Assembly: GCF_041765605.1 (NCBI RefSeq)
Contig: NZ_CP168900.1
Span: 1,318,001 to 1,382,000 of the forward strand
Reading direction: 5' to 3'
Source of the DNA: Listeria monocytogenes
GTDB taxonomy: Bacteria > Bacillota > Bacilli > Lactobacillales > Listeriaceae
DNA length: 64,000 nucleotides
This document shows, piece by piece, positions 32,313 through 59,552 of the stretch. Numbering within the stretch: the first letter of the stretch is position 1; every line of letters begins with the position of its first letter. Below the pieces are notes generated by a model that saw only the letters and a program-made list of their open reading frames with translations, was not told the DNA's origin and did no database searches. The position numbers and the translations under genes were made by a program.

Positions 32313-32364
32313 AAAACCCTTTAAAATTAGTTTGTAAAAAGCTAATTTTAAAGGGTTTTTTTAT
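32313..32364. terminator. Terminator between yneF and the accessory cluster
   Basis: A stem of about 16 pairs (AACCCTTTAAAATTAG / CTAATTTTAAAGGGTT) followed by seven T residues on the plus strand. The right arm overlaps the last codons of the convergent DUF2785 gene; the minus-strand T tract is short. Confidence 0.88.
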
Positions 32365-33190
32365 TAGTAGCATTATCATCATTTTTTCTTATATAGCGAG
32401 TTACAATAGGAAATAAATTAAAATCTACATCATAATTTAAAACAGTTAATTTTATTAGAAGTGTTTGAGTAAACTGTTTAATATTTATAAGAGGTATTTC
32501 TGGAAGATGATTTGGAATTGTTTCTGAAAGGGAATTTAACCAGTTTTTTACTTCTTCGATATTTATTTTTTGCTCAAAAAGGGCTGTTATTAATATATTA
32601 CTCAGGCGTTCATCTTCTTCGCCAGTTAGTATGTTAGGGTTGGTCTTATAAAAAAACGTAATTGCAGTCATTATTTTTTTTACGTCTATTTCACTAATTG
32701 TACTTTGGTAAATTAGTTCGTCTAGAGAATCTGCTGTATGGGCGATGCAATGTGCCCAACCTTTTTCTTCAATAAAAGAATGCGTATTTTTTTCTTTTTC
32801 TAGTAGCTCAATAAGTAAATTCAAAGTTTTTCTAATTTCATTATCAGTTAAGAAATTATGAACCTTATTATTTTCTAGTAATAATGCAATAATTAATGCT
32901 AAAAATGAGCGTTGAAATACTGCATCTGAGTCAATAATGTTAATCTTGAATAGTAAATTATTCTTATTGACTGCGTAATTATAAATTCTCCTTTTTTGAT
33001 CTGTAGTTAAATTATCTTGACCAACAAACCATTCGAAAAAAATGTTGTAAGCAATATTATCTCTCAATTCACTATCAACGGAAGAAAGATAGGACAACAT
33101 AGTATCAATTATTTCATTAGATGCGTCTGGGTCTTTAGGTAAGATATAATTATTTTGTTTTAATATGTTGAATAAATTAGAATCATGCAC
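32348..33190 (-). CDS. DUF2785 family protein
   Basis: A 280-residue, very AT-rich, mostly helical protein. The segment EEKGWAHCIAHTADSLDELIYQ (key GWAHxIAHxADxLDEL, about residues 141-161) is the signature of the DUF2785 family, whose function is unknown. No signal peptide or membrane segment is visible. It is last in the minus-strand cluster, 18 bases after the methyltransferase gene, and its 3' end is embedded in the yneF terminator. It may be a passenger rather than part of the helicase system. Confidence 0.72.
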   Translation of the reverse strand: MHDSNLFNILKQNNYILPKDPDASNEIIDTMLSYLSSVDSELRDNIAYNIFFEWFVGQDNLTTDQKRRIYNYAVNKNNLLFKINIIDSDAVFQRSFLALIIALLLENNKVHNFLTDNEIRKTLNLLIELLEKEKNTHSFIEEKGWAHCIAHTADSLDELIYQSTISEIDVKKIMTAITFFYKTNPNILTGEEDERLSNILITALFEQKINIEEVKNWLNSLSETIPNHLPEIPLINIKQFTQTLLIKLTVLNYDVDFNLFPIVTRYIRKNDDNATNKKTL

Positions 33191-33208: not shown

Positions 33209-33940
33209 TTAGTTTTTAGTTGCAGATATTAGCAGCATCATTGGTCGGCGGTATTCATCTTGCATTTCGGATAACGCTTTTAATTCGGGAGCTGGTTCGG
33301 GTTCGATTACGCTATTAATTCGGAAGCCGTTTTGTAGTAATGTTTGGATGTAAGTGGTAAGCGTACGATGATATTTTTGGACGTCCTCTCCTAGGAAGTG
33401 ACTTGTGCGCACAGATTCATTGAAGTAACGGTCGACGGGCCAGTGCAACTTATTCCCGGCTTCATCGGTATACCAATCTTGACGTCCGTCTGCTGTAAAT
33501 ACTGGATGCTCTACGGAAAAAATGAAAGAGCCGCCTGATTTTAAATTAGCACGGACTTTCTGACAGATTTCGTCAAAGGAAGCTACGTAATGGAGTGCCA
33601 GTGAGCTTAAAACAACATCGTAGGTTTCTGGCTCTAAATCTATATCTTCTATGGCTTTTTGCTCGTAATGAACTACCGGGGAGGTTGTTTTTTGTTTGGC
33701 TTCAGCAAGCATTCGTTTGGATAAATCGATTCCAAGCACTTTTTGTGCGCCATGATCAGCGGCATAAATGCAGTGCCAACCAAATCCACAACCTAAATCA
33801 AGGACTACTTTTTGGTGGAAATCAGGGAGTAGCTTTTTAAATTCATGCCATTCACCGGCTGCTTTTAATCCTTCTTTGGAGCGGGGCATTTGGCTATATT
33901 GTTCAAAAAAATGTTTGTCATCATATTTATTTTCTTTCAT
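33209..33940 (-). CDS. Class I SAM-dependent methyltransferase
   Basis: A 243-residue Rossmann-fold methyltransferase. Motif I is VVLDLGCGFGWHCIYAA (about residues 45-61), then VLGIDLSKRML for the ribose contact, and SSLALHYV as motif IV. The overall form resembles the UbiE/YcgJ small-molecule group; there is no DNA-methyltransferase motif such as DPPY or PCQ, so DNA methylation is unlikely. It has its own AGAGGAATAAGAA ribosome site 22 bases after the ParB-fold gene. Its base composition is nearer the core genes than that of its neighbours, so it may have a separate origin. Confidence 0.82.
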   Translation of the reverse strand: MKENKYDDKHFFEQYSQMPRSKEGLKAAGEWHEFKKLLPDFHQKVVLDLGCGFGWHCIYAADHGAQKVLGIDLSKRMLAEAKQKTTSPVVHYEQKAIEDIDLEPETYDVVLSSLALHYVASFDEICQKVRANLKSGGSFIFSVEHPVFTADGRQDWYTDEAGNKLHWPVDRYFNESVRTSHFLGEDVQKYHRTLTTYIQTLLQNGFRINSVIEPEPAPELKALSEMQDEYRRPMMLLISATKN

Positions 33941-33962: not shown

Positions 33963-34469
33963 TTAATCAGATGCATGACTAAATTCTTTTTCTAAGAAGA
34001 GGTGAGCAAGTCCGCTCACTTGTTTTAAGCGTAAGATTTCGTTGGCATCCATTCCAATGTTTTTCATGATCCAGCTATCGGACATTCCACTATCGACAAG
34101 TTCACTAACAATGTTGGACATTAATTCTACGTTATGGAATCCACGTGCGCGATTATGACGTATGGTAGAGGCCATTCGATTCACGGTATCTTTTTCGAGA
34201 ATGACAACTGGCAGGTATTCGTTTTCTCGTTCGCGAATTCGTTTGGAGGTGGTCATGATTGTGTAACGGTGGAACCCGTCTATTATTTCATATTTATCGC
34301 TGCCTTCCAAGGGATAACAAACAATGGGTTGCGTAAATCCATCTTCCCAAATTGATTTTTCAAGCAATTTGAGTTCAAGTGCGGGGACTGTGTTCGGATT
34401 ATAATTATTTGCTTGTAGTTTTGTGTAGTGGATTGGAGTGACGCTATATACTGGGCTTTTGTAATTCAT
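33963..34469 (-). CDS. ParB/sulfiredoxin-fold protein, IbrB-like
   Basis: A 168-residue protein with the ParB N-terminal fold: an opening LLEKSIWEDGFTQPIVCYP, the core motif YEIIDGFHRYTIM (about 63-75) and IRHNRARGFHNVE (about 107-119) corresponding to the ParB box II-like region, then a helix-turn-helix-like SWIMKNIGMDANEILRLKQVSGL. It pairs with the PAPS-reductase-like gene nine bases upstream, as IbrB pairs with IbrA in E. coli. ParB-fold proteins may bind or hydrolyse nucleotides (CTPase); whether this one does is unknown. It is not chromosome-partitioning ParB: it lacks the C-terminal domains and has no parA partner. Confidence 0.78.
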   Translation of the reverse strand: MNYKSPVYSVTPIHYTKLQANNYNPNTVPALELKLLEKSIWEDGFTQPIVCYPLEGSDKYEIIDGFHRYTIMTTSKRIRERENEYLPVVILEKDTVNRMASTIRHNRARGFHNVELMSNIVSELVDSGMSDSWIMKNIGMDANEILRLKQVSGLAHLFLEKEFSHASD

Positions 34470-34478
34470 TATTTCACC

Positions 34479-35783
34479 TCATAAAATATTATTATATTTC
34501 TCTAATGCGTTTTTTCGCTTCTCTAGTTCTAATTTCGTTTGACCGAATCCCATATATTTACATGTATAATCATTTTTCAAAATGGCGATACACATCCGTT
34601 TGTAAGTAGGGACGCTTGCGAATTCTTTAATTTTCAAATCGTCTGGATATTCTTTAAAGCGAACGATTTCCATCGGATTGGTATAAACACGGTTGTTTTG
34701 TGGTTTACCAAGGAAATCTGCTTGGACATCTAAATTTTTCAATTCCTCGACGGTTTCTACTTTTAAAGCACCGCCTTTTTCGGTCCAGTATGTAATGCTC
34801 GTTTTGAATTTTTTTAAATAGCGTTCTCTCGTGTAGCTTGGCAAAGTCGTGAGTAGAAACTCTAAATACGATTTCCACGTATGGTTTTTTGGCAATTTAA
34901 TTTCTTTCCAAGCCATTGCGGAGGTACCGCCGTATATTGCTGTGAAATTGGCGCCGTTCACACGACCGACTAGTTTGGACCAAAGAGCGGGTTCGATAAC
35001 ACGATATAATTTAAGACTTTCTGTAGCAGAATCGTTAAAAGGGCTTGCAACGCGCATATCGTGCACAGTTAGACCAGCATGATAGAATAAATCATAAATT
35101 TTATTATAGGACCAATGGAACTTAGCGTTAGCAATCCAAATATCTTCTACTCGCCAGTCATGGATAGGATAGGCATTATAGATGTTTTTGGAAATTTCAG
35201 TTGTCCAATTGTACTTTTTATACATTCGTTCTTTTTTGTGAATCGCGTTATAACGATTAAGAGATTCTTGTTGTCTTATGCCTATTAAAGCAATCGTTTT
35301 TTTGGCGTTATTTTTAGTATGTAGCCAGTGAATGATTTTTTTATTAAATTCGTAATCCCAAAGATTTTCAAAATCAAAGTCGAAAGGGGCATTATCTTCA
35401 TTGATGACGGATGGAAAGGAGGGCATATCTCTAACCCAAATGTCTCGTTTGGACTTTTCCCAAGGTTTCCAGTGGTCGGTAAACATCGAAACGGCGGATT
35501 GAGCGGCGATTGGCAGACAGCACCAAAGCGGCTCAATAATATCTAAATTACTGGTTAACATTTCGGTAACGAAGTCAGTTGTAGCGCTGTACTGACCTTC
35601 GTAGTCTAAATGATACACGTAGATTTTCTTTTGAATATTATTTTTCCGCATGTAATCAATCATGAGATGAAGCATTACTGCACTATCTTTACCGCCTGAA
35701 AAAGAAACGATAATATTGTCAAATTCGGAAAAAATTACTTCCATTCGTTCTTGGGAAGCATCAAAGACTGTTCTAGAAAGCAT
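34479..35783 (-). CDS. PP-loop PAPS-reductase-like protein, IbrA-like (DUF3440)
   Basis: A 434-residue protein. The N-terminal PP-loop ATPase has NIIVSFSGGKDSAVMLHLM (SGGKDS at about residues 30-35), the hallmark of PAPS reductases and related sulfurtransferases, and ALIGIRQQESLNRY, the second nucleotide contact. The C-terminal half, with SATESLKLYRVIEP and a DUF3440-like region, is typical of the COG3969/IbrA group often carried by phages and genomic islands. It probably activates a substrate with ATP by adenylation; whether it handles sulfur is unknown. It has no CysH-type C-terminal catalytic cysteine motif that I can see. The start overlaps the helicase gene end by 11 bases. Confidence 0.82.
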   Translation of the reverse strand: MLSRTVFDASQERMEVIFSEFDNIIVSFSGGKDSAVMLHLMIDYMRKNNIQKKIYVYHLDYEGQYSATTDFVTEMLTSNLDIIEPLWCCLPIAAQSAVSMFTDHWKPWEKSKRDIWVRDMPSFPSVINEDNAPFDFDFENLWDYEFNKKIIHWLHTKNNAKKTIALIGIRQQESLNRYNAIHKKERMYKKYNWTTEISKNIYNAYPIHDWRVEDIWIANAKFHWSYNKIYDLFYHAGLTVHDMRVASPFNDSATESLKLYRVIEPALWSKLVGRVNGANFTAIYGGTSAMAWKEIKLPKNHTWKSYLEFLLTTLPSYTRERYLKKFKTSITYWTEKGGALKVETVEELKNLDVQADFLGKPQNNRVYTNPMEIVRFKEYPDDLKIKEFASVPTYKRMCIAILKNDYTCKYMGFGQTKLELEKRKNALEKYNNIL

Positions 35784-36972
35784 CCATTATCACCTCAAAA
35801 GAATTTTTTTGTGAGAGCTCTTTTTTGAATTCTTGCAATAGGTTGGTTTTCTTAGAAATATTTACATCAATAAGAGAATCAAGCCCGACGTTGCCACTTA
35901 AATCATGGTAGTAGCAGTCTTGCGTTTGCCCAGTCCGGTAAATACGCCTTTCTGATTGATCGCGCTGAGAATAATCAAACGTTTTATCAAAGTAAATAAT
36001 TTGATTATAAAATTGCAAATTGAGTCCGTAAGAAGATTTAGCAAAAGTTGTAATTTTTACATTAGGAAATGCTTTTTGTAGTGCTTCTTCAGATCGTTTA
36101 TATTTACAGAAAATAATCGTCGTTTCTTCTTTTCCGGCGACTAACGATTCGGTAATAGTAAATTTTTCAGAGGAGAGACAGTAACAGTGTTGCATCACTT
36201 GAGACATTTCTAAAAAATTAATATTGATGGTGTAGGCAGCCGCTTTTTGGAGATAGTCTTCTTTTATTTCATAATATTGCTTTAAAAGTTCCTCATCAAT
36301 TGAAAAATCATGACGAATATAATGCCACTTAACGGCTATTTCATGCGAAGAAGTAAAAATAAAAGGTGTGATTAATTTATATAAGTACTCTAAATTATGA
36401 TACTTTTTGATGATGTCCATTGACTGTTGCTTGCTTTGGGTTAGTTGTGTAATTGTTACGTATTCACAAAACGTCTTTTTAAACTGCGAAAAACTTAGAT
36501 TTAATATTTTAGGAGATAAAAACTCTAGTTGAGACCAAAGATCTAAAATATTTCGGCTAAGCGGTGTGCCATTCATAATTAATTTGTAGGTAGCTAGTCG
36601 TGAAAGTTTGATTGCTCGCTGCGTTCGAAGGGCATGGACGTTTTTAATTTTTAAGCTTTCATCCATAATAATGTAGCTATTGTTTGAGTTTTTAAGTTTG
36701 TCACGACAGTAGAGGTATAGACGATCTGAGTTGGAAAGGGATTCAATGCCGATGATTTCTTGTGGGAATTTATAACCCCATTTGTTTATTTCTGCTTCGA
36801 GATTTGCTTTTGTTTGAAAAGGAGTAATCCATAACACATAATCTGGTTTTGCATCATTGATTAATTCACATGCTACCCGCGTCTTCCCGCTACCCGGTTT
36901 CATAAACAGAGCACCGACTTTATATTTTTTGAGCTTTATTAATGCTTGTTGCTGGCTATCTAATAAGGTCAT
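35773..36972 (-). CDS. SNF2-like superfamily 2 helicase
   Basis: A compact protein of about 399 residues with both RecA-like lobes of an SNF2-type ATPase: Walker A FMKPGSGKTRVA (about 23-34), Walker B YIIMDESLKIKN (DES in place of DEAH), motif III IMNGTPLSRNILDLWSQLEFL, and motif VI DQSERRIYRTGQTQDCYYHDL with the SNF2-type R-x-x-R-x-GQ. It lacks added recognition or nuclease domains, as in small phage-type SNF2 proteins, so it most likely translocates on DNA for a partner. Start: ATG at 36972, eight bases after a weak GTGAT; TTG two codons upstream is possible. It overlaps the upstream gene and the IbrA-like gene. Confidence 0.82.
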   Translation of the reverse strand: MTLLDSQQQALIKLKKYKVGALFMKPGSGKTRVACELINDAKPDYVLWITPFQTKANLEAEINKWGYKFPQEIIGIESLSNSDRLYLYCRDKLKNSNNSYIIMDESLKIKNVHALRTQRAIKLSRLATYKLIMNGTPLSRNILDLWSQLEFLSPKILNLSFSQFKKTFCEYVTITQLTQSKQQSMDIIKKYHNLEYLYKLITPFIFTSSHEIAVKWHYIRHDFSIDEELLKQYYEIKEDYLQKAAAYTININFLEMSQVMQHCYCLSSEKFTITESLVAGKEETTIIFCKYKRSEEALQKAFPNVKITTFAKSSYGLNLQFYNQIIYFDKTFDYSQRDQSERRIYRTGQTQDCYYHDLSGNVGLDSLIDVNISKKTNLLQEFKKELSQKNSFEVIMDAF

Positions 36973-37330
36973 TTTCAATTATCACATCTTTTTCTATTTT
37001 TTTAGGGACATGTGTACGTACTTTGATAATGCAATCGTTTACTTTTTTTGTATGAAAAAACTGCATTATTTCGTCACTTTCATGTTTAAAGGTATGTATC
37101 ATTTTGGCTGTACTTAGTTCTTTTTTTTCTGTATGTTTTTTTAGAAAGAAGTTCCACGTATCTGGGAAATAAAAATAGCTGTATTCAGATGTGAGTGAAA
37201 ACACCATTTTTTTAGGCAGTAAGAAAAAATAACCTTGATATTCACTTTCTGAGGGCATTTCAATAATTGTTTGCTTATCCCATTGTTCAATTCGTTCACT
37301 ATATGTATATATTTTGTGCCATTTTACCAT
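36956..37330 (-). CDS. Unknown 124-residue protein, first gene of the accessory cluster
   Basis: I do not recognise this protein. It is rich in aromatic and charged residues (YQGYFFLLPKKMVFSL, YSYFYFPDTWNFF), has no signal peptide or membrane segment, and ends in a Lys/Ile-rich helix-prone region. The start is ATG 12 bases after AGGAG. The stop overlaps the start of the helicase gene by 17 to 23 bases, depending on the helicase start, which argues for a translated gene coupled to the helicase. It could be a DNA- or target-recognition partner, but nothing in the sequence shows that. Confidence 0.6.
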   Translation of the reverse strand: MVKWHKIYTYSERIEQWDKQTIIEMPSESEYQGYFFLLPKKMVFSLTSEYSYFYFPDTWNFFLKKHTEKKELSTAKMIHTFKHESDEIMQFFHTKKVNDCIIKVRTHVPKKIEKDVIIENDLIR

Positions 37331-57233: not shown

Positions 57234-57291
57234 CATGAATCCAAAAACGTGCTTCAAAAATCGCTATTTTTAGCAGGTTTTTGGATTCATG
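57234..57291 (+). promoter_or_regulatory. Long double hairpin in the pnp leader
   Basis: CATGAATCCAAAAAC (57234-57248) is perfectly complementary to GTTTTTGGATTCATG (57277-57291), and the loop holds a second stem AAAAAT-CGCT-ATTTTT (57256-57271). It is not followed by a T tract, so it is not a terminator. Long stems in pnp leaders are RNase III and PNPase autoregulation sites in E. coli; a similar role is inferred. Confidence 0.6.
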
Positions 57292-57380
57292 TGTGCTTTA
57301 GAAAATCTAAAGTGTGCGTGAACATTCTTATGCATGGTAAAGTTTCTGGTTCGTGTTTCCTAAACAAAGGAGATTAAATT

Positions 57381-59552
57381 ATGTCTGAAAAACAAGTGTT
57401 TTCAACAGAATGGGCAGGTAAAACATTATCTGTTGAAGTAGGTCAATTAGCAAAACAAGCAAGTGGAGCAGCATTAATTCGTTACGGAGATACGGTCGTT
57501 TTAACAGCGGCAGTAGGTTCTAAAAAACCACGTCCAGGCGACTTTTTCCCATTAACAGTTAACTATGAAGAAAAAATGTACTCCGTTGGTAAAGTTCCCG
57601 GTGGATTCTTAAAACGTGAAGGACGTCCAAGTGACCGTGCAACATTAACAGCACGCCTAATTGACCGTCCAATCCGTCCATTATTTGCAGAAGGTTTCCG
57701 TAATGAAGTTCAAATTACATCTACTGTATTCAGTGTGGATCAAGATTGTTCTCCAGAAATGGCAGCAATGCTTGGCTCTTCTGTTGCATTAGTTATTTCC
57801 GATATTCCATTTGAAGGACCAATCGCTGGTGTGGATGTTGGCCGTATTGACGGAAAATACGTTATCAACCCAACTATCGAACAAGCAGAAAAAAGTGATA
57901 TTAGCTTAACCGTTGCAGGAACTTATGATGCAATCAACATGGTAGAAGCTGGAGCAAAAGAAGTTTCAGAAGAAGCAATGCTTGAAGCAATCATGTTTGG
58001 TCACGAAGAAATTAAACGTCTTTGTGAATTCCAACAACAAATTATCGCTGCAGTTGGTAAAGAAAAACGCGAAATCGAACTTTTCGTAAGCGATCCTGAA
58101 CTTGAAGCAGAAGTAAAAGCAGCAAGTGAAGGTAAAATGAAAGCAGCTATCAAAACAGAAGAGAAAAAAGCACGTGAAGCTGCTATTGAAGAAGTAAAAG
58201 AAGAAATTTTAGAAAGCTATAAAGCAAAAGAATTAGAAAATGAAGCAGAAATTCTTGGTGAAGTAGCTCATATTCTTGAAATGATTGAAAAAGACGAAAT
58301 GCGTCGTTTAATTTCTCAAGATAAAATCCGTCCAGATGGTCGTAAAGTAAACGAAATTCGTCCACTTTCTTCTGAAGTTGGTATGCTTCCTCGTGTCCAT
58401 GGCTCTGGTTTATTCACTCGTGGCCAAACACAAGCTCTAAGTGTATGTACACTGGCACCGCTTCGTGAACACCAAATCATTGATGGTTTAGGGACAGAAG
58501 AATACAAACGTTTTATGCATCATTATAACTTCCCACAATTTAGTGTTGGGGAAACAGGTCCTCGTCGTGCTCCAGGCCGTCGTGAAATCGGTCATGGTGC
58601 GTTAGGTGAACGTGCGTTACAATATGTTATTCCTTCCGAAGAGGAATTCCCGTACACAATCCGTCTAGTATCAGAAGTGCTTGAATCAAACGGATCTAGT
58701 TCTCAAGCAAGTATTTGTGGTTCTACACTTGCAATGCTTGATGCTGGTGTTCCAATTAAAGCGCCAGTTGCAGGTATCGCAATGGGTCTTGTAAAACTTG
58801 GCGATGATTACACAATTCTTTCTGATATCCAAGGTATGGAAGATCACTTTGGCGATATGGACTTTAAAGTTGCTGGAACAAAAGATGGTATCACAGCACT
58901 TCAAATGGACATCAAAATTGATGGCTTAAGCCGCCAAATTTTGGACGAAGCACTAACACAAGCAAAAGAAGGGCGCCTACACATTCTAGAACACTTAACT
59001 AGCACTATTAGCGCGCCACGTGAAGAACTTTCTGCTTATGCTCCAAAAATCATTACACTTAACATCAAACCTGAGAAAATCAAAGATGTTATCGGACCTG
59101 GTGGAAAACAAATCAATGCAATTATTGATGAAACTGGCGTAAAAATTGATATCGAACAAGATGGTACAGTATACATTGCTTCTCAAGATCAAGCAATGAA
59201 CCGTAAAGCAATTGCTATCATCGAAGACATCGTTCGTGAAGTAGAAGTGGGAGAAGTTTACACTGGTAAAGTTCGTCGTATCGAAAAATTTGGCGCATTT
59301 GTTGAATTATTCAAAGGTACAGATGGCTTAGTTCACATTTCTGAATTAGCACATGAACGTGTTGGTAAAGTAGAAGATATCCTAAAACTAGGTGATGAAG
59401 TTACTGTTAAAGTTATCGAAGTAGACCAACAAGGTCGCGTTAACTTATCACGTAAAGCTTTGCTTGAGAAAAAAGAACAACCAGAAGGCGATAAAAAACC
59501 ACAAGCAGAGAAAAAATTCTATCCTAAAACGAAAAAACCAGAATCTAAATAA
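57381..59552 (+). CDS. pnp: Polynucleotide phosphorylase
   Basis: PNPase degrades RNA 3' to 5' using phosphate. The 723-residue protein has two RNase PH domains (first about 10-140 with [14 protein letters not shown]; second about 310-530 with [15 protein letters not shown] and [17 protein letters not shown]), a helical domain between them, then KH ([16 protein letters not shown]) and S1 ([20 protein letters not shown]) domains and a Lys-rich tail. ATG follows AAAGGAGATTAAATT. It is preceded by a long leader with a strong hairpin. Confidence 0.98.

Follow-up and report, generated by a model that had tools for sequence, protein, structure and literature searches.

The subject of this report is a set of four coupled minus-strand genes at positions 33963-37330 of a 64,000-nucleotide stretch of Listeria monocytogenes DNA (the window; contig NZ_CP168900.1, positions 1,318,001 to 1,382,000), which encode a 124-residue protein (from open reading frame (ORF) 124, ORF124), an SNF2-type motor, an IbrA-like PP-loop enzyme and an IbrB-like ParB-fold protein. 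The set is conserved in Listeria and present in phages, and what is new here is a common C-terminal tail carried on differing heads by the small proteins encoded before SNF2, one class of phage heads being related to the CRISPR subunit Cas11c. Both the phage origin and the adaptor tail were missed by an earlier note made from the sequence alone. The explanation that we favour, with a confidence near the middle of the scale, is that of a domesticated phage module in which an adaptor-targeted SNF2 motor would work together with a reaction of IbrA and IbrB, perhaps for counter-defence in phages and for a job of its own in Listeria. The features of the set are as follows.

36956..37330, minus strand: ORF124, adaptor candidate, with a folded N-terminal domain, flexible linker and C-terminal tail (phrog_27058, AlphaFold2 (AF2) model)
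36959..37012, minus strand: coding stretch HVPKKIEKDVIIENDLIR of the shared C-terminal tail of ORF124, residues 107-124 (tail profile)
35773..36972, minus strand: SNF2-type motor, core only, 399 residues from the ATG at 36972 (PF00176, phrog_62, 1z63); an alternative TTG start at 36978, also on the minus strand, gives 401 residues
34479..35783, minus strand: IbrA-like PP-loop enzyme with DUF3440, 434 residues
35682..35699, minus strand: PP-loop signature SGGKDS, IbrA residues 29-34 (invariant across 129 sequences)
33963..34469, minus strand: IbrB-like ParB-fold protein, 168 residues (ParB_N, phrog_2159)
34266..34280, minus strand: DGFHR motif of IbrB, residues 64-68 (conservation in 116 sequences)

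The ORF listing of the window confirms the coordinates, order and coupling given in the earlier note: ORF124 and SNF2 overlap by 23 nucleotides (nt) from the TTG start or 17 nt from the ATG start, the overlap of SNF2 and IbrA measures 11 nt, and 9 nt lie between IbrA and IbrB. The SNF2 assignment is upheld by SNF2-rel_dom (PF00176, 1.9e-12) and phrog_62 (3.4e-64), by motor motifs conserved across 81 sequences and by 1z63 as best relative in the PDB (6.1e-29). The proposed likeness of the remaining pair to IbrA and IbrB also stands, since a PP-loop enzyme with DUF3440 (5.5e-85) and PAPS_reduct (6.9e-13) domains adjoins a ParB-fold partner with Pfam match ParB_N (4.8e-07), phrog_2159 (3.1e-71) and weak PDB matches to Noc, ParB, SbnI and 1vk1. 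Every position of SGGKDS is identical in 129 dereplicated IbrA sequences, window included, as are R170, E173, S174 and R177, and the cysteines C89, C408 and C398 are retained in about 97, 92 and 86%; the enzyme belongs to the CysD/FAD-synthase/PAPS-reductase class, a fold that we count in favour of the domesticated module. IbrB has its own fully conserved motif (D64, G65, H67 and R68, 100% of 116 sequences, window included). ORF124, described earlier as unrecognised, has no Pfam match above cut-off but does match phrog_27058 (1.7e-9), a phage family of unknown function, and thus each of the four proteins matches a PHROGs phage family (phrog_2159, phrog_2302, phrog_62 and phrog_27058).

Relatives of ORF124 occur in 15 of 25 genomes of the genus, the window's own counted, and in all 15 loci (14 fetched loci and the window) the four genes and a methyltransferase gene stand in one order between yneF and pyrH, with IbrA split by a frameshift in a single locus (L029). 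Mean pN/pS (nonsynonymous relative to synonymous change) against the window, from 14 sequences per gene of the set with the window included and L029 excluded, is 0.066 for IbrA, 0.077 for IbrB, 0.086 for SNF2 and 0.198 for ORF124, with 0.125 for the methyltransferase (11 sequences) and 0.010 for pyrH (14 sequences). The set is under purifying selection and is a maintained chromosomal feature; the possibility, raised in the earlier note, of a decayed prophage fragment without conservation fails on this selection and on the 15 of 25 genomes.

Among isolated phages, Streptococcus equinus phage Pika, S. thermophilus phage CHPC877 and Lactobacillus phage CR28 carry all four genes, arranged as in Listeria. 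Fusobacterium phage phiFN37 has the order IbrA-IbrB-small-SNF2, and Flavobacterium phages FCL-2 and 1H have small-SNF2-IbrB-IbrA with a diverged IbrA, one further small gene separating adaptor from SNF2 in 1H. With the CHPC877 SNF2 as query, 122 phage records were matched, 90 of them from Flavobacterium, for which the neighbourhoods of two records were examined. Linkage was then counted from either side. For SNF2, the best 80 of 187 viral relatives gave both IbrA and IbrB within 3 kb in 73 loci, one of them in 5 and neither in 2. In all 80 the partners share the strand of SNF2, each of the seven incomplete loci has a contig end no more than 2.5 kb away, and both partners are present in 37 of 37 loci with 2.5 kb of flank on both sides. 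For IbrA, the best 80 viral loci had IbrB and SNF2 in 61, IbrB only in 16, SNF2 only in 1 and neither in 2, and the corresponding figures for the best 80 bacterial loci are 25, 51, 1 and 3. It follows that IbrAB is independent of SNF2, whereas this SNF2 subfamily was not seen apart from IbrAB. The independent occurrence that the earlier note had named as an argument against a joint system therefore holds for IbrA-IbrB (51 of 80 bacterial loci without SNF2) but not for SNF2 (37 of 37 viral loci with both).

The SNF2 profile matches at 1e-3 in 272 of 398 genomes of the phylum. Only two of these matches are outstanding, that of the window's own genome (2e-212) and a second one (1.9e-59); all others are at 5.5e-17 or weaker. 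The five Listeria rows of a 90-row SNF2 tree form a single clade, and the row closest to it by path comes from a viral contig. Distances correlate well between IbrA and IbrB (r 0.641), moderately between SNF2 and IbrA (r 0.329) and weakly between SNF2 and IbrB (r 0.149, p 0.016), which argues that partners have been exchanged. A direction of capture from phage to Listeria would be in keeping with the SNF2 tree.

The protein encoded just before SNF2 is highly variable, but in most cases ends in H-x-P-x-x-[VI]...[DE]-L-x-[RK]. The strict pattern occurs upstream of SNF2 in 55 of the 105 dereplicated loci with room for such an ORF; among 6,316 other ORFs it occurs in 25, and about ten of these seem to be additional tail ORFs. 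A profile built from the strict-pattern tails, Listeria copies among them, reaches the line of 12 bits at 142 of 21,058 ORF C-termini (training sequences and near-copies included) and at none after shuffling. Tail ORFs are present in 73 of 110 dereplicated SNF2 loci, ten of which hold two or three, and all 84 share the strand of SNF2; none was found in the 72 loci without SNF2, a number that leaves aside L240 and L248, first counted as SNF2-less, which hold SNF2 at the contig end. The tail also tracks the clade of the motor: where SNF2 scores at least 380 bits it is present in 72 of 83 loci, below that line in 1 of 27. Of the 11 close-SNF2 loci without a profile hit, L132 and L185 are truncated, eight show by eye a tail that has diverged, and in L247 a 341-residue protein bears a tail that is clear by eye. 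The window itself belongs with these tail-adaptor SNF2-IbrAB modules, Listeria rows having helped to train the profile. Outside the training set (L305, L306, L307, L291 and L292), three of 407 C-termini exceed 5 bits, each an expected adaptor, at 37.2, 17.2 and 6.2 bits, the last under the 12-bit line; these adaptors are homologous to the training adaptors, so that the scan is not an independent test.

The tail is kept on ORFs ending 300-2,000 nt upstream and is therefore not merely a by-product of overlap with SNF2. In Listeria, synonymous change is low in the tail stretch (pS 0.122, versus 0.57 in the domain), from which we conclude that constraint at the nucleotide level contributes there. 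Owing to its tail, the upstream small protein is probably an adaptor. In the distant SNF2 clade the upstream genes of L174, L121, L173, L179, L192, L115 and L075 encode proteins of 330-440 residues with an LTGTEKQxAWAExIR-type motif, several with a CGHEG zinc-ribbon-like start, and the four scanned (L174, L121, L179, L075) match no Pfam family.

The heads differ as much as the tails agree. After trimming of the tails, the 139 heads were sorted by sequence into seven clusters (67, 34, 18, 8, 6, 4 and 2 members); an ETxKA...PK pattern is visible by eye in four clusters, and we therefore claim at least three head types that look unrelated and do not equate the clusters with seven folds. Among the ten dereplicated multi-tail loci, different head clusters are combined in 10 of 11 comparable pairs, with a random same-cluster expectation of 35%. 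A single adaptor type is present in Listeria sensu stricto. The AF2 model of ORF124 has a mean predicted local distance difference test score (pLDDT) of 83.3, with block means above 90 for residues 1-90 and below 50 for residues 95-107. It shows a confidently modelled domain and, past a disordered linker at residues 95-107, a tail that is modelled with modest confidence; no PDB entry matches the domain reliably.

One phage head class (cluster 4) is related to the C-terminus of Cas8c, a region that also yields Cas11c, by Pfam, NCBIfam, PADLOC and PDB comparison. The members found are L186/L231, L194, L225, L227 and L255 only, and since L186 and L225 are 92% alike the relation rests on about four independent sequences. 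Pfam Cas_Csd1 is matched above its curated cut-off by L186/L231 (2.7e-13) and L225 (2.5e-12) and below it by L227, L194 and L255 (2.8e-4 to 7.3e-4); NCBIfam TIGR01863 matches all five (3.5e-12 to 6.2e-4), always below a cut-off set for the full-length protein, and PADLOC calls Cas8c for all four heads given to it. Against the PDB, the top matches of the five-sequence head profile are 7kha_K (124 residues, 4.8e-6), 9jhb_B (6.9e-6) and 9jhc_A (1.1e-5), listed under the CT1133 family, which we take to be Cas11c; a chain named Cas11 (8g9s_H) is matched at 0.0043. The gene order in L194 is a KCYSVRL-type adaptor, the Cas11c-like adaptor, SNF2, IbrA and IbrB, and no other cas gene was recognised in L194.

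Tail, head and motor together fit an adaptor model, and we tentatively propose the following mechanism. The N-terminal domain of the adaptor would recognise the target, and the conserved tail would dock on the SNF2 motor or on the complex of motor, IbrA and IbrB. Brought to its target in this way, the motor, of a type that acts on double-stranded DNA, could remodel or clear a DNA-bound protein, and IbrA and IbrB, the latter with an invariant active-site-like motif, may catalyse an ATP-dependent reaction of the adenylylation type that acts on the DNA or the bound complex. Listeria sensu stricto would retain the set for a chromosomal job, perhaps the control of foreign DNA or prophages. In phages the variety of heads, with a Cas11c-like one among them, points to counter-defence or host takeover. 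The Cas11c-like head in particular hints at adaptors directed against host CRISPR complexes bound to DNA, and for this reason counter-defence is ranked first for phages. A more daring version, which we regard as unlikely, is a general counter-defence engine, later captured by Listeria sensu stricto and there turned in one version to a use of its own, in which one motor with IbrA/IbrB is aimed by interchangeable adaptors, some of them mimics of target subunits, at various DNA-bound host complexes. If this were true, the Cas11c look-alike would address type I-C CRISPR and all adaptors would carry one motor-docking tail.

A machine for DNA modification in the manner of DndBCDE is, in our view, unlikely. 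IbrA would activate a group on DNA with ATP, IbrB would regulate or complete the reaction, SNF2 would move the enzymes along DNA and ORF124 would be a small DNA-binding subunit, with phages masking their DNA and Listeria marking its own. The parts list is parallel (PP-loop, ParB-fold, motor and small protein), the PP-loop and the arginine, glutamate and serine residues noted above are invariant in IbrA, with well-conserved cysteines, and Dnd pairs PP-loop with ParB-family proteins according to PMC10853773. However, neither a cysteine desulfurase nor a restriction partner is among the six genes scanned, IbrA falls far under the DndC cut-off, and general marking needs no variable heads on one tail, let alone a Cas11c-like one.

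Less likely still is a transcription remodeller, in which the set would switch prophage or host promoters with a RapA-like SNF2 and adaptors that choose the promoters. In work by Sandt in 2002, E. coli IbrAB reportedly activate prophage eib genes, the only experimental IbrAB function known to us, and the module genes of CR28 and CHPC877 lie shortly upstream of Cro-like and antirepressor genes; yet the E. coli pair, to our knowledge, is accompanied by neither an SNF2 motor nor a tail-bearing adaptor. The module is also present in FCL-2, a phage reported in PMC4541368 as having no clear integrase or repressor signs. The architecture is compatible with a type II toxin-antitoxin system, in which the head and disordered tail of the small protein would restrain a downstream SNF2-IbrAB effector whose toxic activity would be freed upon loss of the small protein. 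A small overlapping upstream gene with variable head, disordered linker and constant tail would suit this arrangement, and PMC7020466 lists lmo1309-1310, whose residues co-vary, as a possible toxin-antitoxin pair; that pair, however, is IbrB-IbrA and does not include the small protein. Antitoxins would also be poorly matched by a Cas11c-like head and by differently headed adaptors in tandem at one locus, which makes such a role improbable.

Around the four genes the window has the following features.

33209..33940, minus strand: class I methyltransferase, probably on the same transcript (domain search)
32348..33190, minus strand: DUF2785 gene, accessory to the locus (PF10978, 7.9e-48; in 6 of 15 Listeria loci, window included)
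32313..32359, no strand assigned: terminator-like hairpin at the boundary of yneF and the minus-strand unit (20-pair stem and T run, listed on the plus strand)

The methyltransferase gene lies 22 nt past IbrB and the DUF2785 gene 18 nt further, both outside the gene list of the earlier note, and the transcription unit may therefore exceed four genes; use of the hairpin on the minus strand is suggested by a flanking A run. The methyltransferase is found 3' of IbrB in 15 of 15 Listeria loci, disrupted in three, and is not beside IbrB in the phage modules L017-L020 and L305-L307 as annotated. For the cluster genes PADLOC gave only distant matches. At gathering score Rfam has a single match in the window, the Listeria sRNA rliD (57234-57558, minus strand).

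Further arrangements were observed. IbrA-like genes occur in 18 of the 25 genus genomes. Two of these (L291, L292) hold a second version of the module elsewhere (IbrA 73-74%, IbrB 71-72% and SNF2 28% identity), with an upstream small gene that is weakly helix-turn-helix-like and lacks the tail, which suggests a different targeting subunit. L294:2687-4952 carries a divergent IbrA (33-34%) with IbrB, and L293:3711-6041, from the genome with the frameshifted IbrA, a second, similar divergent pair (IbrA 33-35% over the two); neither stretch contains SNF2, and both pairs are followed by a gene that by eye resembles a GNAT acetyltransferase. Records OR848903.1 and OR848947.1, of 3 kb and titled Listeria phage LM 4-14-1, contain genes of the chromosomal set (IbrA 96-97%) and are probably fragments of host DNA, not phage. 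The IbrB frames at L181:3588-4679 and L229:10368-11456 have a long N-terminal stretch resembling, by eye, an HNH homing endonuclease, perhaps an insertion between IbrA and IbrB. Near the module of phiFN37 (L019:10742-13051), a second ParB-like gene adjoins genes for a queuine tRNA-ribosyltransferase and a queuosine precursor transporter.

The window genes presumably correspond to lmo1309-1311, matched through annotation and gene order. Parts of the set, called a candidate undescribed system in the earlier note, are already in print, lmo1309, lmo1310 and lmo1311 being IbrB, IbrA and SNF2 in the table of a sensu stricto/sensu lato comparison (PMC5736727) and the first two also appearing in PMC7020466; of the four-gene set itself we found no description in the open-access literature searched, subscription journals and preprints lying outside that scope. 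IbrA and IbrB are frequent in phages, and their annotation as 'co-activators of prophage gene expression' comes with no mechanism. A bare SNF2 motor linked to small proteins with one tail and changing heads provides a concrete, testable architecture for one IbrAB phage lineage, the Cas11c-like head leads to a specific CRISPR prediction, and an unexplained conserved locus of Listeria would become a captured phage machine.

In the DndABCDE, Ssp and BREX type 4 phosphorothioation systems, too, a PP-loop enzyme and a DNA motor are combined, joined in the case of Dnd by a ParB-family protein; here, in contrast, no desulfurase, DndA, DndD or DndE is found among the six cluster genes, SNF2 replaces the ABC-type ATPase, and the adaptors are swappable. 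Identity with Dnd is rejected, as the earlier note had already held, the DndC model (TIGR03183) scoring 31.2 bits versus a cut-off of 290.4. Core motifs are shared with the SNF2 proteins of defence systems (ZorD, DrmD, DpdE), whereas the window protein is a bare core of 400 residues; ZorD scores 52.2 bits versus a cut-off of 1500 and DrmD 31.8 versus 950, and no partners of Zorya, DISARM or Dpd are among the six genes. With Cas11c, the small subunit of the type I-C CRISPR effector, the phage head class has in common about 100 residues that align with the Cas8c C-terminus, the PDB chains being 116-124 residues long, but the class has an SNF2-linked tail and adjoins SNF2-IbrAB. This likeness is not claimed for ORF124, which has no Cas match in Pfam, NCBIfam or PADLOC. 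Close to the set, too, are IbrA and IbrB of the E. coli ECOR-9 island (YbdN and YbdM of K-12, with ybdNM under YbdO according to PMC9068703), in which a PP-loop enzyme with DUF3440 also adjoins a ParB-fold protein, whereas an SNF2 motor and a tail-bearing adaptor are regular partners of the one IbrAB lineage described here, in phages and in Listeria alike.

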